From contig CATABD010000019.1 of NCBI GenBank assembly GCA_949494735.1, forward strand, positions 1 through 36,678: a stretch of 36,678 nucleotides of DNA, given 5' to 3'. The notes below the pieces were generated by a model. The model was given only the letters and a program-made list of their open reading frames with translations. It was not told where the DNA came from and did no database searches. Positions 1-36,678 of this stretch are shown piece by piece (positions within the stretch are counted from its first letter, which is position 1; each line of letters begins with the position of its first letter). A program made the position numbers and the translations under genes. This stretch comes from an uncultured Oscillospiraceae bacterium. GTDB lineage: Bacteria; Bacillota; Clostridia; Oscillospirales; Oscillospiraceae.

Positions 1-530
1 AAACGGAGATAGCCCACCGCCACAGCCTGTTGCAAGGCGCTGTGGAGCACGGTATGGATGTTACGCAGGGTCTTGGGGGATAAACCCTTGCCGCCCTCGT
101 CGGGGGGCCTTACAAGGCTGTTATAGAAGCCCTGGATGGTGTGGGTGTTCAGAGCTTCCAGCTTCACCGCACCCAGGGCGGGCTTGATATGGTTCTTGAT
201 GTTGCCGATGTAGTCTGCCACGGTGTAGGGCTTCACCCCGCCCAGGTAGTCGTTGGCCCAGATATCCATCCACGCGCCCACGGCCATGCGGCAGGGGGCG
301 GTATAGGTGCCAGCGTCCAGGGCGGCGGTGGCCGCTTTCAGCTTTTGGGCAACTTCTTTCTGTGTCTTGCCTGTGATGGAGCGTTGAATCTGCTTCCCGG
401 TGCCGGGGTCAAAGCCTACGGTATAGCGGGCCTCCCAGTAGGGGTATTCCTTCCCATTGCGGGTGACGGTCTTTTTACGAATGGTGCCTGTGCCGCTGGC
501 GGCACGGGCGTTTTCTTTTTTGCGCGGCAT
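1..530 (-). CDS. int: Tyrosine site-specific integrase (N-terminal part, runs off the window)
   Basis: Minus-strand reading frame opening at an ATG at 530, with an AAGGAGG site 8 bases upstream, and still open at base 1; about 176 residues are visible. The start reads MPRKKENARAASGTG, then an arm-type DNA-binding segment (GKEYPYWEARYTVGFDPGTG, IQRSITGKTQKEVAQKL), then the SAM-like core-binding domain (AVGAWMDIWANDY through LSPKTLRNIHTVLHSALQQA). The catalytic domain lies outside the window. This order is that of Tn916/Tn1549-type integrases, which excise and integrate circular element DNA with an excisionase. The neighbouring small gene at 813 is that excisionase. It is a different gene from the broken integrase at 33.5/36.6 kb. 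Family assignment is firm; whether the gene is intact cannot be seen. Confidence 0.9.
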   Translation of the reverse strand, partial: MPRKKENARAASGTGTIRKKTVTRNGKEYPYWEARYTVGFDPGTGKQIQRSITGKTQKEVAQKLKAATAALDAGTYTAPCRMAVGAWMDIWANDYLGGVKPYTVADYIGNIKNHIKPALGAVKLEALNTHTIQGFYNSLVRPPDEGGKGLSPKTLRNIHTVLHSALQQAVAVGYLR

Positions 531-621
531 TGTGATAAATCCTCCTTCCAAATGATGCCGCGTCCGATACACTAAGGCTATAGTATACCGGGCGCGGCGG
601 TTCGTCAATTCATTTTTTTGG

Positions 622-28931: not shown

Positions 28932-29076
28932 ATTGCTGTGTGGCAAGGGTCAAACGGTCATCCCTGACTATAATTAGGGGCGGCGTGTACAAGAGCAAAT
29001 TGCATCTTGCATACTGAACCAATACAGTATAAAATAAATGCATCAGAAACGGGTTTACACCATGTTAGGAGCTCAT

Positions 29077-29880
29077 ATGGAATATATTGTATATTGTGAT
29101 GAGTCAAACAGTAATGGGACTAAGTTTAGCGACTTTTTCGGTGGCTGCATTGTAAGCGGAAAAGACTGGCACTTTGTGGAAGATGCGCTGGAAGCTAAAA
29201 AGAAGGAATTGAATCTGTTTGGTGAATTGAAGTGGACGAAAGTGACCGCGCAGTATTTGGAACGGTACATAGAAATTGTGGATTTATTTTTTGATTTTGT
29301 CCGGGACGGGAAGCTCAAGGTTCGCATCATGTTTCGGAACAATGCGGATCAGCCGACCAGCTCGGCCGTGCGCCATAGTGACGATAAGTATTTCAAGCTG
29401 TACTATCAGTTTTTGAAGCACGCTTTTGGGATAAAAGATATCCCTGCGGCAGAAGAAGACATTTTTATAAGGATTTACTTGGATCAGTTGCCGGATACTC
29501 GCGAAAAGTGCGAAGAATTTAAGAAGTTTGTCCGGGGATTGCCATCGACCTGGAATAGTGGACGTACAGGGGGAAAGCTGCACATCCGAAAAGGCGATGT
29601 GGCGGATGTGTGTTCCCATGATCACGTTTTGCTGCAATGCACAGATATTGTTTTGGGGGCGATGTATTTTCGCCTAAACGACTTGCACCTGGAAAAGCCG
29701 GCGGGGAGCGGGTGCAGAGGGAAACGGACGATAGCAAAGGAAAAACTCTATAAACACATCAATAAAAGAATTTGTGAGATACTGCCTCATTTCAATATTG
29801 GGATTTCTACAGGAGCGCGTGAGTATCAGAACGCAACCTGGGAGTTGCCTTATAGCCATTGGAGGTTTGTCCCCAGGTAA
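29077..29880 (+). CDS. DUF3800 protein (probable nuclease-like defence or element protein)
   Basis: A 267-residue protein. It starts MEYIVYCDESNSNG, the acidic DES strand that defines DUF3800, thought to have an RNase-H-like fold. LYYQFLKHAF, IRIYLDQL and near the C-terminus HDHVLLQCTDIVLGAMYF (the QxxDxxxGA helix) complete the family pattern. TTAGGAG at 29065-29071 supports the ATG at 29077 rather than that at 29038. DUF3800 proteins are frequent in prophages, mobile elements and defence islands; their activity is not settled. Base composition is clearly more AT-rich than the operon to the left. It lies 250 bases before the HamA-like gene on the same strand. Confidence 0.8.
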   Translation: MEYIVYCDESNSNGTKFSDFFGGCIVSGKDWHFVEDALEAKKKELNLFGELKWTKVTAQYLERYIEIVDLFFDFVRDGKLKVRIMFRNNADQPTSSAVRHSDDKYFKLYYQFLKHAFGIKDIPAAEEDIFIRIYLDQLPDTREKCEEFKKFVRGLPSTWNSGRTGGKLHIRKGDVADVCSHDHVLLQCTDIVLGAMYFRLNDLHLEKPAGSGCRGKRTIAKEKLYKHINKRICEILPHFNIGISTGAREYQNATWELPYSHWRFVPR

Positions 29881-30130
29881 AAAGAAAACGTCCCACCCTC
29901 TCTACATCAATACCCCACGTAGGAACGCAAGGCTTCGAGAAAGGCAGGACGCTTCTGACATATTGTATGGCGAAGGGAAGACAAATATGCAAACCCCTCT
30001 ATTCTTATGATACACTAAGGAAGCAGAAAAGTCAATATGAAAAGAGTGATAGGCCAATATAGTTCATATTAGGTAAATTAAGAAACGCTATCGGATAAAG
30101 GCTTGTGGATGTTGCGGATTTAAGTTAACC
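29881..30130 (+). other. Non-coding AT-rich spacer in the defence block
   Basis: No credible gene. Short open frames exist in two registers but lack ribosome sites and family features. No strong hairpin or terminator is visible. TATGAT near 30009 could be a -10 box, but no -35 fits it well. The promoter of the following pair must lie here if the DUF3800 transcript stops. Confidence 0.4.
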
Positions 30131-30841
30131 ATGCCGAGAATGGAAGGGATGTTTGTGAATATTCTTGAGTGCAAAAAAATATGTGAACCTGAAAATAATA
30201 GGGTTCTTTTCATACGTGTTGATCCAGAAGATATAAAAATAACGTTGCGGCAGATACTTGACGTACTATTTGACTGTTCATGGATCAGTAAATTTGACAG
30301 GGCCTATACACGTGAGAGCTTTTTGCGGAGGGCTGAACCAACGCTTGCCGATATTGAGCAGAAGCTTTTAGCGGCTAATCCGGACTCTATTTCGCAAGAC
30401 GCGGGAGAGTATGTGGTGTCTGAACTTGCAAGAGAAGCCATTATTCAGCAACTGGACTATTTGGACATTCCATTGGCGGAATTATACAACAAAAAGAAAT
30501 CTGGAAATCCAGGTTTTGACTTTCACAGCCAAACTACAGATGACGTTATTATATTTGGCGAAGCAAAATACCTAAAGGATAGAAATGCTTTTGGAAACAG
30601 TCTTGCACAGATAGTAAATTTCGTTGAAGTAGGAAAAGACATTAAAGATATCTTAGATTTGGAGTATTTTTGCAGTGACACGGCGCTAAATGCAGCATAT
30701 AGAGGCAGAAAAGGCTTTGCGGCGGCGTTCTCGGCAAAGCGTACAGCTTCAGATGACATCATCAAACATATCCAAGGAAATGAACATTATAAAGAACTTA
30801 TCAAATATCAAGAGTTGTTATTGGTGGCGGTGAATATATGA
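30131..30841 (+). CDS. HamA/AbpA-like (DUF1837-type) PD-(D/E)xK nuclease
   Basis: A 236-residue protein. AGEYVVSELAREAIIQQLDY (91-110), GNPGFDFH with Asp130 and IIFGEAKY with Glu144 and Lys146 form a PD-(D/E)xK nuclease core in the arrangement of HamA of Hachiman and AbpA of AbpAB. The start is uncertain: ATG 30131 has no ribosome site, while GGAAGGG at 30142-30148 favours a GTG at 30155. Its last bases overlap the helicase start (ATGA), so both are made together. In Hachiman the nuclease is held by the helicase and degrades DNA when infection is sensed. The family call rests on motifs and partner, not on a search. Confidence 0.65.
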   Translation: MPRMEGMFVNILECKKICEPENNRVLFIRVDPEDIKITLRQILDVLFDCSWISKFDRAYTRESFLRRAEPTLADIEQKLLAANPDSISQDAGEYVVSELAREAIIQQLDYLDIPLAELYNKKKSGNPGFDFHSQTTDDVIIFGEAKYLKDRNAFGNSLAQIVNFVEVGKDIKDILDLEYFCSDTALNAAYRGRKGFAAAFSAKRTASDDIIKHIQGNEHYKELIKYQELLLVAVNI

Positions 30842-33183
30842 AGAATGTCATTCAGCAAATAATCGCCCATGAGAATCTTGAGGAGATATATAAATTTGCT
30901 CAAGAATCATTATTTAGTGAGGGACCGATTTCTTCAACAACGCTTGAAATTTTGTCATATTTAAAGCTGTTTGCTCCAGAATTTTTTTCTACAATACAAG
31001 AGGAGGTTCTATCATTGATGGGAGTTTTCTATAAAAACCCATCATCAACGACATTAAAGGGACACCTATTAAATGCCTATGGTGAATACCTTTTTGAAAC
31101 ATATGACAAAAAATATACACCTGTACAGGCAAGCATAATTCGACAAATCAATGAGTCAAAAAACTTTAGTTTTTCTGCGCCAACAAGCACTGGGAAATCT
31201 TTTGTATTTAGAAACTTAATTGAGTCGTCAGAAAAAGATGTTGCCATGATTGTTCCTTCTCGCGCCTTAATAAATGAGTATTATGACCGAGTTTGTAGCC
31301 TGATTCCTGACAAATCTGTAAATGTGCTAACATTTGTTGACATTATTAATACAAAACGAGCTCGAAGAAGTGTGTTCATTTTAACTCCTGAGAGAGCAAA
31401 AGATCTTTTTAAACACAAAAAACAACTAAATATTGAGCTGTTTCTATTTGACGAAGCGCAGCTGAGTGATGAGGAAAGTGTTCGAGGCCTCTTTTTTGAC
31501 AGTATTGTGCGTCGAGCGCAAAAGGCGTTTCCTGACGCTAAGTATGTATTTGCACATCCATTTGTTGTAAACCCGGAAGCGCAATTAGTGAAGAATGGGT
31601 TTGACCAGGAATGCTCAGCTTCAATCTCCTACAATCAAAAAAATGTTGGGCAAATTTTCTTTGCGGTTGACAAAGGAGACTATTTTCATTTTGGATTAGA
31701 TGCGGCAGTAATGGGAACCAGGAAAATTAAAAGTGACTTTGATCCCGTCTTGAACGCTTTGCGTCGTGGAGGGTCGGTTTTAGTGTATACGACGAAGGCC
31801 AGTATTTATAGTAAAAAAGTATTTGAACAATTTCGAGTATACATTAATGAATGCAGACTCATTAAAGATCCTGAGGCATTACAGCTAATCGAACAATTTA
31901 AACAATACATAGGTGCCAATGACAAAGGAGAAGGATATTATCGCTCTGAAATGCTTGAAAATATGAGACGGGGAATTGTTACCCACCATGGTTCCTTGCC
32001 ACTGCAGGCCAGGTTGATTCTTGAGCATTTTACCCAAAAAGGGTTTTGTAGGATTTGCTTCGCGACCTCGACTTTAGAGCAGGGTATTAATATGCCATTT
32101 GACGTAGTCTATCTTAATACGTTCCAGGCCAGCAAACCACTATCTATGAAAAATTTAATAGGAAGAGCCGGGCGGTCAACACTGCATACAAAATTTGATT
32201 ATGGGAGTGTAATTATTAAATATAGCAATATGAGCGACTTCCGGGATGTTATGATGCATAAAGAAGTACTTGATGATGTTTCACTGCTGGATACTCCAGA
32301 GGACAAGGATTCTGACTATAATGATTTTAAAACGGCGATTAATTCAAACTCGTTTTCTGATGAGTATAATCTTACGCTTAATGAGGTTGAGAAGCTGAAT
32401 AGCTCCGCTATAACAGAGCTGGCAGTAAAAACACTGGATGCATTGTTTCGTGGAGACAGGTTGGTTTCACTGAGAGAGATAAATGCAGATTTAGACTATA
32501 AGCTACAGCTATATGGATATTTTAGGATACTTTATAGATGCCATCTTGGGAGATCGCTTTCAGATGGGGAAGAAAGTGTTTTAAACACAGCAATTAAAAT
32601 TTTGCTGTGGAAGATCCATGGACGAAGTTTTAAAAACATATGCTGGTATCGATATGCCTACATCGCGAGAATACCTGAGAGACGAGACTTGGCTAAACGG
32701 TATAGGATGGCGGGCTCGGAATCCATGCGTCAGTCCATCCGGGCACAAGCAAATCGACTGATGGCAAGGTTTGTCCGTGGCTATGCTGAAATACCTGACA
32801 GGGAATTGCGAAACTTTTCTCTGTATCCTCAAGGAACAAAAGCGAGAGAGATCGACTATGATATGATTGTGTTTGATACATATGATTATCTTGACAAACT
32901 CATAAGTTTCAAGTTGAGCGACATATTTTATGCAGTATTTGAGCAATGCTATAAGAAAACTGGTGATAGCCGGGCCATTCGCCTTGCACAATTTTTCAAA
33001 TACGGAACAGATGATGAGAAGGAAATATGGATGTTGCGATATGGCCTATCTTTTGAAGAGATTGAAATAATCAAGCCCTATGTTAAGACGGTAGACCAGA
33101 GTGAGATAAAATTGTTATCTACGGCATATAGTGACCTATCGGCGGAGCAGTTAAAGCCCATAGCACGCTACATTGGGGAGTAA
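30838..33183 (+). CDS. HamB/AbpB-like superfamily-2 helicase
   Basis: A 781-residue helicase. Motif I is APTSTGKS (114-121), motif II is DEAQ (205-208) rather than DEAD/DEAH, motif III region VFAHP, a conserved THHGSLPLQAR (382-392), motif V ATSTLEQGINMP (409-420) and motif VI IGRAGRS (441-447). This resembles Ski2-like/HamB helicases. The C-terminal 300 residues are helical without a motif I know. No signal or membrane parts. With the overlapping nuclease gene it forms a two-gene defence-type module. Base composition is AT-rich like its partner, pointing to horizontal gain. Confidence 0.75.
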   Translation: MKNVIQQIIAHENLEEIYKFAQESLFSEGPISSTTLEILSYLKLFAPEFFSTIQEEVLSLMGVFYKNPSSTTLKGHLLNAYGEYLFETYDKKYTPVQASIIRQINESKNFSFSAPTSTGKSFVFRNLIESSEKDVAMIVPSRALINEYYDRVCSLIPDKSVNVLTFVDIINTKRARRSVFILTPERAKDLFKHKKQLNIELFLFDEAQLSDEESVRGLFFDSIVRRAQKAFPDAKYVFAHPFVVNPEAQLVKNGFDQECSASISYNQKNVGQIFFAVDKGDYFHFGLDAAVMGTRKIKSDFDPVLNALRRGGSVLVYTTKASIYSKKVFEQFRVYINECRLIKDPEALQLIEQFKQYIGANDKGEGYYRSEMLENMRRGIVTHHGSLPLQARLILEHFTQKGFCRICFATSTLEQGINMPFDVVYLNTFQASKPLSMKNLIGRAGRSTLHTKFDYGSVIIKYSNMSDFRDVMMHKEVLDDVSLLDTPEDKDSDYNDFKTAINSNSFSDEYNLTLNEVEKLNSSAITELAVKTLDALFRGDRLVSLREINADLDYKLQLYGYFRILYRCHLGRSLSDGEESVLNTAIKILLWKIHGRSFKNICWYRYAYIARIPERRDLAKRYRMAGSESMRQSIRAQANRLMARFVRGYAEIPDRELRNFSLYPQGTKAREIDYDMIVFDTYDYLDKLISFKLSDIFYAVFEQCYKKTGDSRAIRLAQFFKYGTDDEKEIWMLRYGLSFEEIEIIKPYVKTVDQSEIKLLSTAYSDLSAEQLKPIARYIGE

Positions 33184-33393: not shown

Positions 33394-33438
33394 TTGGCAA
33401 GGATGAGGTCTCCAGTTCAAATCTGGATAGCAGCTCCA
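33394..33438 (+). other. tRNA-Thr 3' fragment: probable attachment site
   Basis: The sequence contains the 3' side of an anticodon arm (AAGGATG), a variable loop, a T-arm TCCAG-TTCAAAT-CTGGA, an acceptor strand TAGCAGC, discriminator T and CCA ending at 33438. It closely resembles the 3' half of Clostridia tRNA-Thr. The 5' half is absent, so it is not a functional tRNA. A tRNA-type terminator and the C-terminal end of an integrase follow directly, the standard layout of an integrated element whose attachment core is a tRNA 3' end. Confidence 0.75.
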
Positions 33439-33443
33439 CTGAA

Positions 33444-33476
33444 ACCCGTTGTCCCGCAAGGGATAGCGGGTTTTTT
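33444..33476 (+). terminator. Terminator downstream of the tRNA-Thr fragment
   Basis: ACCCGTTGTCCC (33444-33455) pairs with GGGATAGCGGGT (33460-33471) around GCAA, with two G-T pairs, and runs into six Ts. Confidence 0.8.
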
Positions 33477-33503
33477 CTATGGTTTTTTCCCTTATGTTTT
33501 CCC

Positions 33504-33681
33504 TTATTGGCCCAAAACGTCCTTGATGTAACTCTCCATGCGGCGGGCGCTCTCCTGTTTCATTTGGTCAGTGACGTGCCCGTACACGTCCAGGGTAAAG
33601 GCGGCGGTGGCGTGGCCGAGATTGCCTTGCACCGTCTTGATATCGTCCCCGGAACGGATGGAGGCCACGGCGTAGGAGTGC
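33504..33681 (-). pseudogene. int: Tyrosine integrase, C-terminal fragment (split by insertion)
   Basis: On the minus strand the frame reads SYAVASIRSGDDIKTVQGNL, GHATAAFTLDVYGHVTDQ, MKQESARRMESYIKDVLGQ and a TAA at 33504-33506. It contains the LGH box and the catalytic Tyr in TLDVYGH but lacks the Arg and first His of the active site. Those are at 36611-36678, where the frame reads ARFHDLRH just before the other junction. Joined, they give HDLRHSYAVASI, a normal integrase. The gene is therefore inactivated. The rest of its 5' part is beyond the right edge. Confidence 0.9.
33678..33681. repeat. Target-site duplication, left copy
   Basis: GTGC here and at 36611-36614 is present once in the reconstructed integrase gene. 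A 2-base TG duplication with 11-bp terminal repeats fits equally well, because the end bases are shared. Confidence 0.8.
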
Positions 33682-33691
33682 CCTTATGTCA
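33682..33691 (+). repeat. Left terminal inverted repeat
   Basis: CCTTATGTCA, complementary to 36601-36610. Beyond these 10 bases the two ends diverge. Confidence 0.85.
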
Positions 33692-33698
33692 TAATAGA

Positions 33699-33743
33699 GA
33701 CAAATCGGAAAGCCCTTGTGCCGCAACGGGTTTCGGATTTGTC
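33699..33743. repeat. Subterminal hairpin at the left end of the insertion
   Basis: GACAAATCGGAAAGCCC (33699-33715) and GGGTTTCGGATTTGTC (33728-33743) are nearly complementary, with one mismatch and one bulge. The position 17 bases inside the end suggests a recombinase-binding or transcription-stop element. Confidence 0.6.
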
Positions 33744-33842
33744 CTTATTCTTTTTCCATTTATTTGCCCCGCAAAAATAGGCATAACGAGGAATGTCAAA
33801 AAGTGAGGTGTCCTATAAAAGACAAAAGCAATGTATAACTAT

Positions 33843-33876
33843 CCAGCCGGGTGCGTACAGCGTCCCGGCTGGGTAC
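33843..33876. terminator. Terminator-like hairpin
   Basis: CCAGCCGGG (33843-33851) pairs perfectly with CCCGGCTGG (33864-33872), with a 12-base loop, followed by GTACTTTTT. Confidence 0.65.
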
Positions 33877-33986
33877 TTTTTACCAGCAGGGGACAGGCCG
33901 GCGAACCTTGTACTGGGGGTTGCCCCGTGGGAACTGCTCAGATAGACCGGCGCGGGTTAGCCTGTGTGCCTTATGCGCCTGATTAA

Positions 33987-34281
33987 GCTGTTCCCTCCCG
34001 AGCACCAGTGGGAACAGCGCACGGATACATTGCCGCAGGCAATGTATCCGTGCGCTCTGCGAGGCGCAACCTGAATCGCTGACTTGTCACCGCTCCAGGC
34101 CGCTTGCGCCGTTTTGCGGCTATCCCCTCATGACGTTGCCGGGTCACTCTTTCCCTGCTGGTCATGCGAAGCATGGAGCCACGCCGAAGGCGTGTTCGAC
34201 TGGACGCGGAAGTGGCCAGTCCGGGGGTTGGGGGAACCCCAACAAGCGAGCGGCAATATCCAAAAGGATATCGCCGCTCAT
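33987..34281. other. Hairpin-rich non-coding region, candidate transfer origin or element control region
   Basis: No credible gene lies between 33682 and 34362. Four inverted repeats follow one another: GCTGTTCCC/GGGAACAGC (33987-33995 with 34010-34018), a perfect 19-bp repeat with a 3-base loop (34016-34034 with 34038-34056), GTTGGGG-GAA-CCCCAAC near 34227-34243, and GAGCGGC/GCCGCTC with an inner ATATCC/GGATAT (34248-34279). The arrangement recalls the conserved non-coding DNA near mobilisation genes of Tn1549-like elements, where the transfer origin lies. No relaxase is present here, so transfer function is a guess. Confidence 0.45.
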
Positions 34282-34362
34282 TGCTTGCCACGTATGTTGA
34301 ACCGCCTCATTAATATAATCAACTACACTTTTGGATGGATACAAATTTATTGATATGTCTCT

Positions 34363-34767
34363 CTAATCAATATAATTATATGTAACTTGGCCCTGAGGTA
34401 AGTTACGTAGAGCGTCCGGCACATCGCGACCGGATTGAATGATTACCAGCCCCCCATTGGACCAAAGGTAACCCGCAAAGCACAGTGCTGCGGCCAGCAG
34501 TAATGCCAAAGTCACTGTTAAAATGCGTTGGCGGTGGACCTTTTTCTGCCGCTGCGCTGCAATCGTTGCCGGTGCACATTCCTCCAACAGACGTACCACA
34601 CACTCGTCCGGTGTGCCGAAGTTGGCAGCGAGGTCCGTATTGCCAGCCTCTGGGAAATCTTCTAAATAGGCGGTCAACGCACGGTCCAACCGTGATAGCA
34701 GGCGCTCTTTTTCTTCGCGTGGACAGTCCAACAGCTTACGCACGGATTGAAGATATTGTTCTTTCAT
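34363..34767 (-). CDS. HAAS/DUF1700-like membrane partner of a PadR regulator
   Basis: A 134-residue protein. The first 65 residues are a helical module (YLQSVRKLLDCPREEKERLL, LTAYLEDFPEAG, LAANFGTPDECVVRLLEE) like the HAAS-type domain found beside PadR regulators. One transmembrane helix follows at about 82-101 (ILTVTLALLLAAALCFAGYL), then a short extracytoplasmic tail. It starts inside the stop of the PadR gene (4-base overlap). Such pairs usually couple a cell-surface signal to a PadR repressor, but the mechanism is unknown. Confidence 0.8.
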   Translation of the reverse strand: MKEQYLQSVRKLLDCPREEKERLLSRLDRALTAYLEDFPEAGNTDLAANFGTPDECVVRLLEECAPATIAAQRQKKVHRQRILTVTLALLLAAALCFAGYLWSNGGLVIIQSGRDVPDALRNLPQGQVTYNYID

Positions 34768-35114
34768 TGGAGCGATTCCCCCTTCTCAAACGGCAGTATA
34801 CTGTCCACCAACCGCTCCACTCCGGCAGCAAAGGTCTGATATGTGTGCCAGAGTTCTCGAAAATAAGCGCGGCCATCTTCTGTGATTCCGAAATACTGCC
34901 GCCGCCGTCCGTCTGGAGCAATGCGCTTTGGAAGTTCCTGAATGTACTGCTGTTCAATTATACGGTATAAAATCGCGTAGGGAAATGTAATTGTGATTGC
35001 GCCGCCGCTGCGTTCCGAAATCGCAGCGGAAAGCTCCAGAGCGTAGTGGTCTCGCTCATAGAGCAACGCCAAAACCAACATTTCTGCCAGGGCCTTTTTC
35101 AAGTTTTCTTCCAT
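34764..35114 (-). CDS. PadR-family transcriptional regulator
   Basis: A 116-residue winged-helix protein. LAEMLVLALLYERDHYALEL, AAISERSGGAITITFPYAIL, YRIIEQQYI and PDGRRRQYFGITEDGRAYFR are the PadR helix-turn-helix, the wing (with the usual RRRxYxxT pattern) and a C-terminal dimer helix. It is a small PadR of the type encoded with a membrane partner. The gene is read divergently from the 390-residue protein gene, with a 204-base shared control region, so it probably represses one or both. Confidence 0.92.
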   Translation of the reverse strand: MEENLKKALAEMLVLALLYERDHYALELSAAISERSGGAITITFPYAILYRIIEQQYIQELPKRIAPDGRRRQYFGITEDGRAYFRELWHTYQTFAAGVERLVDSILPFEKGESLQ

Positions 35115-35218
35115 ATTGTGCCCCCGCTTTCAGCAATCAGTAGAGTTGATTATAGCACAAGTGTGGAATGCGCACAATATCATACTGTAAATAATTCTTA
35201 AATAAAATAAACTTTTCA

Positions 35219-35247
35219 TTGACAAATAATTTGCGTAGTTATAAAAT
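35219..35247 (+). promoter_or_regulatory. Promoter of the 390-residue protein gene
   Basis: TTGACA (35219-35224) and TAAAAT (35242-35247) are 17 bases apart. Downstream, AAGCACATGAC and GTCATGCTT (about 35258-35284) form an interrupted inverted repeat that could be the PadR operator. Confidence 0.65.
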
Positions 35248-35318
35248 GGGTTGAGCAAGCACATGACACACTGGGTCATGCTTGAATCAAATTGTTCCAA
35301 AAGGCAGGGGGGTATTTT

Positions 35319-36491
35319 ATGGATATCGGCAGAATGTCGAGTTTTCCTATGCGCATGGTGCGAATGATGGATTGCTCAAAAAAAGCGGGGGCTTCGTCGT
35401 TCAAAGACCTGCTGTCCGATGCGCAACAAACGGTCCAAGCGTCAATCCACCTGTATCTGCCCCGGGAAAACACCATTTTTTCCGGTGGGCCGGGCACTCA
35501 ATCCGTCTATGTGGAGTATACCGCTGATTCCACAGCGGAGGACCCCATTGTGCGTATCCGGGGTGAGGCCAGCAGCGGAGAGTATGACTTTACCTGCCAC
35601 ATCAATGACATTGACCCAAAAAAGGCGTCCTATGCAGAGATGTGTGCTTTGTGGGGTCATCTGCGGAGTGCGGGTGAGATTTCCTTCCAGTTTGGCGGCA
35701 GCAGCAGGCCAGTAATCCCCTACGGCGTAGACACTGGGGATGTCACGCAAAAGCAAAACTATATGGACAAAATCAATCGGATGACCATATCACAAATGTT
35801 TGATTCGGCTAATCAAATCAGCGCAAGGGAACTGCTGGGCATCTATCAAAATTTTATCGACAAAAGACAACAGAAAATTGAAGATGCTGGTGTGGAAATG
35901 GAAGTGTCCTGTTCTGTCGCTTATGCTGCCCGCATGGAGAAGGTGGCTGACACCATGGCACTGACCGATCCAACAAAGGACCCTACATTGAGGGCTGCAT
36001 ACGACCAGCTTTCCACCGCTTCCAAAGACGTGCTGGATCGTATGAATGCCGGACAGGACAACATCACTCAAGACGAATGGACGAACCTATGCCGGGAGTT
36101 AAGAGATGCGGGAATGATCACTGAGTCCGACTTTATGTGTACCAGAGCAGATCTCCGCACGGTGCCTCTTGGCTACATGGATGACGGCGGGAATGTTGTG
36201 TATTATGGCAATCCTCCATTCCTTTCACGTGGATTGCTGGGGACGGAAACCCGTTTGAGTGGTTATTCTGGTCTCAAGAGCCTTTGGACCGTGGAGGATT
36301 GGTCAGGTGACCCACTCAAATATTTTGACCAATGGATCGAATCACTGCGCAATTGGAGGAGCGACTTGGCAGCGGAGAAGAACGCAGACGGTACACGGAA
36401 ATACGGAGACCTTTCCCATCTTGGCAATGATATTAACTCCTGCCAGAAAGTGACCAATTTGGTGCGGGGTTTAATGAACTTTCCGAAATAA
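35319..36491 (+). CDS. 390-residue protein of unknown function carried by the insertion
   Basis: Starts at ATG 35319 behind a purine-rich site (GCAGGGGGG); a TTG at 35292 is less likely. There is no signal peptide or membrane segment. Visible parts are a basic N-terminus (FPMRMVRMMDCSKKAG), a beta-rich stretch (SIHLYLPRENTIFSGG, QSVYVEYTADSTAEDPIVRI, GEYDFTCHINDIDPKKASY), and a helical second half (MFDSANQISARELLGIYQNF, EVSCSVAYAARMEKVADTMA, LSTASKDVLDRMNAG) ending in a Trp/Tyr-rich region. I recognise no domain. It has its own promoter and terminator within the insertion and may be the element's cargo or, less likely, an unknown mobility protein. Confidence 0.75.
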   Translation: MDIGRMSSFPMRMVRMMDCSKKAGASSFKDLLSDAQQTVQASIHLYLPRENTIFSGGPGTQSVYVEYTADSTAEDPIVRIRGEASSGEYDFTCHINDIDPKKASYAEMCALWGHLRSAGEISFQFGGSSRPVIPYGVDTGDVTQKQNYMDKINRMTISQMFDSANQISARELLGIYQNFIDKRQQKIEDAGVEMEVSCSVAYAARMEKVADTMALTDPTKDPTLRAAYDQLSTASKDVLDRMNAGQDNITQDEWTNLCRELRDAGMITESDFMCTRADLRTVPLGYMDDGGNVVYYGNPPFLSRGLLGTETRLSGYSGLKSLWTVEDWSGDPLKYFDQWIESLRNWRSDLAAEKNADGTRKYGDLSHLGNDINSCQKVTNLVRGLMNFPK

Positions 36492-36498
36492 AAGGAAT

Positions 36499-36535
36499 GG
36501 GACAGCGGGGCAATAAAGTCCTGCTGTCCCTTTTT
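36499..36535 (+). terminator. Terminator after the 390-residue protein gene
   Basis: GGGACAGC (36499-36506) pairs with GCTGTCCC (36523-36530), with a further GG/CC inside, followed by five Ts. Confidence 0.85.
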
Positions 36536-36600
36536 GCCCTTGACAAAAGCTGTCTGAATATAAATTCAATAGAAAGAATAAAAATTCTTTGTCGTAGGCT

Positions 36601-36610
36601 TGACATAAGG
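36601..36610 (-). repeat. Right terminal inverted repeat
   Basis: TGACATAAGG, the complement of the left end at 33682-33691. Confidence 0.85.
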
Positions 36611-36614
36611 GTGC
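36611..36614. repeat. Target-site duplication, right copy
   Basis: GTGC, as at 33678-33681. The codon for the second His of HDLRH (GTG on this strand, CAC in the gene) is duplicated. Confidence 0.8.
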
Positions 36615-36678
36615 CGCAGGTCGTGGAACCGGGCCTCGGGACAGCCGATAGAGGCCACAATGGGCTTGTATGCCCGCT
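36611..36678 (-). pseudogene. int: Tyrosine integrase, upstream part of the split gene (runs off the window)
   Basis: The minus-strand frame reads RAYKPIVASIGCPEARFHDL then RH directly at the junction. This is the segment leading into the HxLRH active-site motif. Its continuation is at 33681-33504 beyond the insertion. Together they show one gene on the minus strand whose N-terminal two-thirds lie to the right of the window. Confidence 0.9.

Follow-up and report, generated by a model that had tools for sequence, protein, structure and literature searches.

The window analysed here, 36,678 nucleotides long, is an entire contig (C19) from the 3.18-Mb assembly of an uncultured Oscillospiraceae bacterium, a genome in 214 contigs with a completeness of 84.9% that is designated G000 (G, C and L label genomes, contigs and loci throughout). 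Close to its right end a gene for a tyrosine integrase is cut within the catalytic Arg-His box by an insert that belongs to a class of small elements, called satellites below, whose larger relatives are of the integrative and conjugative element (ICE) type (Table 1). Both junctions are present; as the window comprises all of G000:C19, the N-terminal piece of the integrase stops where the contig does. A first-pass annotation of this DNA had recognised the split in the catalytic motif and a cargo consisting of a PadR/membrane pair, an unknown protein and a hairpin-rich region; both descriptions hold, as the cargo comprises a PF03551 protein, a DUF6120-like protein, a 399-aa protein without a Pfam family and a region of strong predicted folding. 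It had also set the limits at 33682-36610 with 10-bp inverted repeats; the repeats are indeed perfect, but they extend over 11 bp (33681-33691 and 36601-36611), and the insert runs from 33681 to 36611. Inward of the repeats, GACAAA (33699-33704) and TTTGTC (36588-36593) stand at equal spacing, 7 bases away on either side.

Table 1. The insert, its parts and the divided integrase gene (positions in the window; a dot marks features without strand).
Feature	Position	Strand	Remarks
C-terminal piece of split tyrosine integrase	33507..33680	-	Begins at the His of Arg-His; PF00589, E 0.0063
TG core, left junction	33679..33680	.	Present at each of the 34 left ends inspected
Inserted element between the two TG cores	33681..36611	.	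2931 bp; from end sequences, size and the empty site in L212
Putative left att arm	33681..33704	+	CCCTTATGTCA, 7 bases, GACAAA; common to ICE-type and satellite left ends
Left-end hairpin	33693..33749	.	Inverted repeat; common to ICE-type left ends, within the shared first ~80 bp
Conserved non-coding region of satellites	33759..34176	.	Two alignments
Multi-hairpin block with covarying predicted stems	34177..34289	.	17 copies; occurs outside satellites too
Cargo: 134-aa protein	34363..34767	-	Weak similarity to DUF6120 (E 0.0028, under the Pfam cut-off); a single hydrophobic stretch, judged by eye
Cargo: PadR-like regulator, 116 aa	34764..35114	-	PF03551, E 9.4e-9
Cargo: 399-aa protein	35292..36491	+	No significant Pfam match; relatives outside satellites in other genomes
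Putative right att arm	36588..36611	-	Layout identical to left arm, reading inward from the right
TG core, right junction	36612..36613	.	Empty-site flanks overlap by TG
N-terminal piece of the same integrase	36612..36678	-	22 codons to the contig end; ends ARFHDLRH

An empty site in a homologous integrase, which the first-pass annotation had proposed to look for, was found. The 58-aa C-terminal piece was searched against 119 relatives, 82 of which gave matches, and 30 loci were retrieved; at one of them (L212, on G014:C31, from the same genus as the window) the integrase lies in an open frame of 431 aa. The left flank of the window (92% identical) stops at base 548 of L212 and the right flank (82%) starts at base 547, an overlap of exactly TG. 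An unbroken reading of RH followed by S or T occurs in 26 of the 30 loci, the remaining four being the window itself (L211), L215, L226 and L235. Within G000 the closest homologues listed for the C-terminal piece (on C19, C6, C15 and twice on C77) are open frames of 56-59 aa, and all five adjoin a left end of the family. An assembly join between fragments of unrelated integrases, which had been named as a possible refutation, is hardly conceivable: the window comes as a single contig from a fragmented and incomplete assembly, and its right flank spans just 67 bp, but the same flanks meet at the empty site, and five further copies bounded by both ends, the similarly bounded segments that had been predicted, lie on other contigs and in other genomes, among them L086.

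The family is recognised by its ends. Within G000, sequences on C72, C77 and C15 match about the first 600 bp of the insert, and C6, C10 and C24 match its left end only. A left-end pattern found 23 loci in GTDB genomes and, when slightly loosened (degenerate), one locus in viral contigs, the first exact pattern having given no match in the viral collection; at all 24 loci the outside sequence reads as an integrase piece beginning with His, with three codons only at L085. After removal of duplicate records the left-end set comprised 35 loci, 34 of them with enough flank to be read; many of the genomes are metagenome-assembled, several left ends lie at contig ends, and the records of several named relatives are of Oscillospiraceae or Oscillibacter. 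In every one of the 34 readable flanks the insertion falls at the His codon of the tyrosine-recombinase Arg-His box, in one orientation, with the left end invariably on the C-terminal side of the integrase. Because 34 of 34 readable left ends occupy the same integrase codon, the insertion of the window element is, on this comparison of sequences, more than chance. The separated C-terminal parts (C-parts) all start with the same residue, and GH conservation among them is 90% or more (L164 has GD instead); their identity to the window piece ranges from 13 to 74%, and therefore many integrase families are targeted. Phage_integrase matches at E<=0.1 were obtained for 25 of 32 C-parts scanned (33 distinct pieces of 32-101 aa). 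On the other side of the site, HxxRH precedes 13 of 14 right ends (eight from a right-end pattern, six from paired or recombinase-adjacent places). Beyond the end itself, ICE-type sequence follows at 16 of the 35 left-end loci. At 11 of these it runs into one and the same small gene, with a RepA_N gene beyond it in L015 and, judged by eye, also in L080 and L174; three loci form a third class and the remainder are short or unclassified. In the third class (L090, L094, L102), to which L105, too short to tell, may belong, about the first 46 bp are the same and lie in the integrase box, with a different interior.

Across these copies the dinucleotide TG is the constant part of the junctions. The script used for the 34 left ends required TG, which is present also in 24 of 24 left ends collected without that requirement. 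Before TG, 23 of the 34 left ends have G and the other 11 have A; after TG, G011 has G in place of C, its right end being AAGGGTGGCG. Since its neighbours vary, TG alone is common to both junctions, and the GTGC seen in the window is TG plus chance neighbours. The 4-base (or 2-base) duplication of the first-pass annotation therefore stands only in its shorter form, as a 2-bp recombination core and not as a duplication made by a transposase. Read together, the two ends of the insert make up a palindromic attP-like site, one half on either side of TG. Serine integrases use a two-base core and a palindromic attP, insert in fixed orientation, and reverse the reaction precisely with the help of a directionality factor; of these hallmarks the core (at both junctions), the palindromic attP-like arms around it and the fixed orientation are present in the sequence, and the first two are characteristic of elements that a large serine recombinase (LSR) has inserted. 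A DDE transposon, or a miniature inverted-repeat transposable element (MITE), that is bounded by terminal inverted repeats and duplicates 4 bp of its target would also explain the perfect repeats and the apparent GTGC repeat of the window. This is very improbable, as only TG recurs at both junctions, as all readable copies sit at one position of one gene in one orientation instead of between variable duplications of constant length, and as the relatives carry LSRs, not a transposase, at their end.

The right-end pattern was searched in 20 genomes and gave 8 places in 6 genomes. At four of the eight, intact LSR open reading frames (ORFs) lie at most 3 kb inside the right end and point at it: a triplet of 539, 545 and 510 aa (G011:C16), LSRs of 562, 550 and 516 aa (G496:C16), three LSR ORFs with a fourth recombinase-like ORF by eye (G492:C4), and an LSR of 515 aa with a partial one (G492:C5). 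The place on G491:C4 is a satellite, and no LSR was found beside the right ends of G031:C242 and G502:C31 within the stretches examined. In the window's own genome, on C9, an integrase N-part ending HMLRH is followed by the right end and then by LSRs of 516-521, 549 and 563 aa that likewise point at this end. LSR genes, mostly in triplets, are thus found in relatives with the same end on G011:C16, G496:C16, G492:C4, G492:C5 and G000:C9, and Resolvase, Recombinase and zinc-ribbon domains were detected in all four that were tested, C9 included. Position by position, the triplets of G011 and C9 are 57, 43 and 49% identical; such sets of three neighbouring LSRs at one end, orthologous by position, are the mark of triplet ICEs. 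A PF03432 relaxase is encoded on G011:C16 together with the triplet and the right end. Copies with a transposase sharing these ends had been suggested as a check; relatives bearing a recombinase do exist, but the recombinases are LSRs. Such genes are very numerous in G000, with 30 PF07508 matches, and in G492-G495, with 30-67 in each.

Taken together, the segment 33681-36611 is probably a satellite, lacking a recombinase, within a family of mobile elements that are inserted by LSRs. A helper, resident or incoming, would supply triplet LSRs that excise and insert it in trans through a TG-TG exchange, a trans action suggested by the shared ends, the shared target and the co-residence in G000. 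Insertion would split the integrase and inactivate it until excision restores the gene, as the catalytic tyrosine lies on the separated piece, and integrases split by the family are probably switched off. Between cells, the satellite might spread by riding on a conjugative element. The idea of a non-autonomous element that targets integrases is in this way supported and refined, the specificity being that of the whole family, larger relatives included. That the insertion would freeze the host element in place is likewise a fair deduction, with the correction that the freezing would be reversible, exact excision at TG restoring the frame. Several observations weigh against the LSR explanation. 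A left end and an LSR-bearing right end were never seen on one contig, G011:C16 included, and a loosened search for the partner end in twelve further stretches (four genomes) and in one beyond the satellite of L164 found none. The right arm of C9 differs from that of the window at 2 of 11 bases (the G011 arm is identical), the right end of G496:C2 adjoins an LSR fragment directed the opposite way, and one right end of the 14 reads HDVGH. Among the C-parts, 7 of 32, being short or degenerate, give no Phage_integrase match at E<=0.1, and that of L086 follows the integrase pattern for a few residues only.

Nine elements have the left end and a non-coding, hairpin-rich region of about 530 nt in common: those of the window, C72, C77, C15, G031:C117, L164 (record title Erysipelotrichales bacterium A81), L170 (G166), L171 (G379) and L086 (record title strain D16-50). 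The patterns used for class assignment missed L014 and L170, both counted as satellites from alignments, and L099 is a partial tenth. The shared region bears an insertion in C15 and is without its middle in G379; matches of at least 80 nt to the middle of the region were found in at least G000, G166 and G379 among 400 family genomes searched, a lower bound, two candidates having been scored per genome. The six satellites with both ends measure 2931, 2850, 2506, 6579, 1250 and 1369 bp (the last in L086) and carry six different cargoes, their content read partly by eye: PadR and two others in the window, and elsewhere a DNA-repair set (HhH-GPD, Ada-type regulator, methylguanine methyltransferase), a sigma factor with a 369-aa protein, GntR regulators with transporter-like and ATPase genes, a 145-aa protein, and a histidine phosphatase. 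Among these six, the three from G000 gave no match to the LSR family PF07508, and no recombinase was seen among the ORFs of the other three. PADLOC gave no match for the window's three cargo proteins; one A81 cargo protein matches its candidate families PDC-S27 and PDC-S01. Relatives of the cargo were matched in at least 16 of 149 genomes, two candidates being scored in each. In L046 (G021:C9, 1422-3612) a module of small membrane-like, PadR-like and ~400-aa proteins has 68% DNA identity to the window cargo; it is without satellite ends, adjoins a recombinase-like ORF and is a possible source of the window cargo.

No integrase was seen in the ORF list or by Pfam in the window's insert, which therefore does not resemble an integrative and mobilizable element (IME) with its own integrase and mobilisation genes. 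It does resemble a cis-mobilizable element (CIME), in that attL and attR are kept and integrase and transfer genes are absent, as CIMEs are defined in the available part of PMC5704250, where they are described as ICEs or IMEs after gene loss. The satellites might accordingly be ordinary decayed ICEs, produced by independent deletions in LSR elements that kept both ends, with no lineage of their own, and the multi-hairpin block of their shared region is also present on C9 and C6, contigs bearing ICE parts. We regard this as rather unlikely. Only about 80 bp of the left end are shared with ICE-type relatives, beside whose left ends the satellite module was not seen, so that the satellites have a module of their own and are ICE-like only at the ends; moreover, independent deletions would not yield nine elements with one module of ~530 nt, six of which, bounded at both ends, differ in cargo.

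The shared region folds strongly. Against 20 shuffles per strand, 33678-34300 has a folding z of about -8 in both directions. Among the 147 pairs predicted for the entire region, 22 retain pairing after changes on both sides (7 sequences), and the covariation term is small. The signal is clear in the final 113 bp, where 17 copies (nine in satellites, eight in other places) were compared: both sides have changed in 13 of 35 pairs, and 96.4% of cells pair against 88.3% when shuffled and 32.5-38.6% when slid; further pair types are not above shuffles (31 against 29.3, with 88 of 500 shuffles reaching 31), and, the copies being related, shuffle counts are not probabilities. The structure predicted for this block is conserved in these alignments, and the region, which is the one internal part that the satellites share, presumably serves as a signal in cis or as an RNA. 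Homing introns typically choose conserved codons within conserved motifs, and an intron-like element spliced from the integrase transcript would fit both the site and the strong folding. It is an exceedingly improbable explanation here: no Rfam family reached its gathering score within the element and no group I or II intron core was found, a scan of 33400-36678 giving one chance snoRNA match only (E 0.48), while the cargo lies on both strands and the family includes large LSR-bearing elements. An origin of transfer (oriT), which the shape of the hairpins had suggested, was considered and rejected: a blastn comparison of five satellites with 22 PF03432 relaxase loci (flanks of at most ~1.5 kb, some ended by contig ends) and L073 matched only the right end in L073. 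The block on C9 lies ~3.5 kb from a relaxase, outside the flanks used in that comparison, and the block occurs also at loci in which no relaxase was seen by eye.

Staphylococcal SCC-type elements without ccr genes resemble the satellites in having LSR-type att sites without LSR genes. To our knowledge these elements, unlike the satellites, use a single chromosomal site and do not target integrases. Streptococcal ICEs with a serine-integrase triplet (Ambroset et al. 2016, PMC4701971) are, in the available part of that paper, like the putative helper in carrying three adjacent LSRs at one end, oriented toward the target and with positional orthology, and like the present family in their very small direct repeats (2-8 bp) and in disrupting the target gene; their targets, however, are mutT, traG and hsdM, not tyrosine recombinases, and no satellites are described there. 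IMEs in the ICE genes traG, maff2 and snf2 are likewise inserted by serine integrases into genes of other elements but, in the portions available of PMC13214566 and PMC5357655, they carry an integrase gene of their own and, usually, one for a relaxase, neither of which was seen in the satellites. The gin element in gerE of Bacillus cereus, from what is accessible of PMC5595907, has three serine recombinase genes and splits a small gene that is restored on excision, but it is autonomous, 28.6 kb long, and uses one site, in a sporulation gene. ICEs with an LSR triplet are thus already known. A literature search that covered few subscription papers or preprints found no report of tyrosine recombinases as the target of LSR elements, nor of such a satellite class; this absence is weak evidence of novelty.

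Integrases are usually the tools of mobile elements and not their targets, whereas here the catalytic Arg-His box itself would serve as attachment site. This box is present in many unrelated integrase families and cannot easily mutate without loss of function, which makes the target self-conserving. A direct conflict between mobile elements is implied, in which integrases would be disarmed and perhaps re-armed on excision, while small elements without recombinase recur with swapped cargo. LSRs with a recurrent and well-defined attB also offer a way to test how serine integrases choose their sites. More tentatively, the elements may constitute a cargo-swapping family of satellites that belong to triplet-LSR conjugative elements, each unit laid out as left att arm, covarying multi-hairpin module, exchangeable cargo and right att arm. 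The module could then be a mobilisation signal or a regulatory RNA acting on the helper, and helper and satellites could both use an indispensable integrase motif as attB, thereby immobilising competitors. If so, landing sites would be available wherever mobile elements abound.

Some further features concern the surroundings of the insert. The integrase end of the window (33394-33758) recurs in G000 on C6 (L015, 1851-2215) with 98% identity, one of the two being interrupted by the satellite and the other by an ICE-type left end; this pair may represent twin elements or an assembly mixture. On C77 (L013, 886-1045) a copy of the left end in an integrase is followed by unrelated sequence and inverted integrase-downstream DNA. 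At the opposite end of the window (1-608, minus strand) lies the N-terminal part of another apparent tyrosine integrase, identified by eye and truncated by the contig start. The gene adjoining the split integrase (30838-33183, plus strand) encodes a DEAD-box helicase matching the HamB (Hachiman) models (E 5e-56); its 236-aa partner (30131-30841) has no PADLOC match, and a 280-aa gene nearby (29038-29880) matches the candidate family PDC-M04A, so that the host element may be a small defence island. Just beyond the 280-aa gene, at 29887-29953 on the minus strand, a DUF3800-VIII RNA was detected (RF03075, 69.6 bits).

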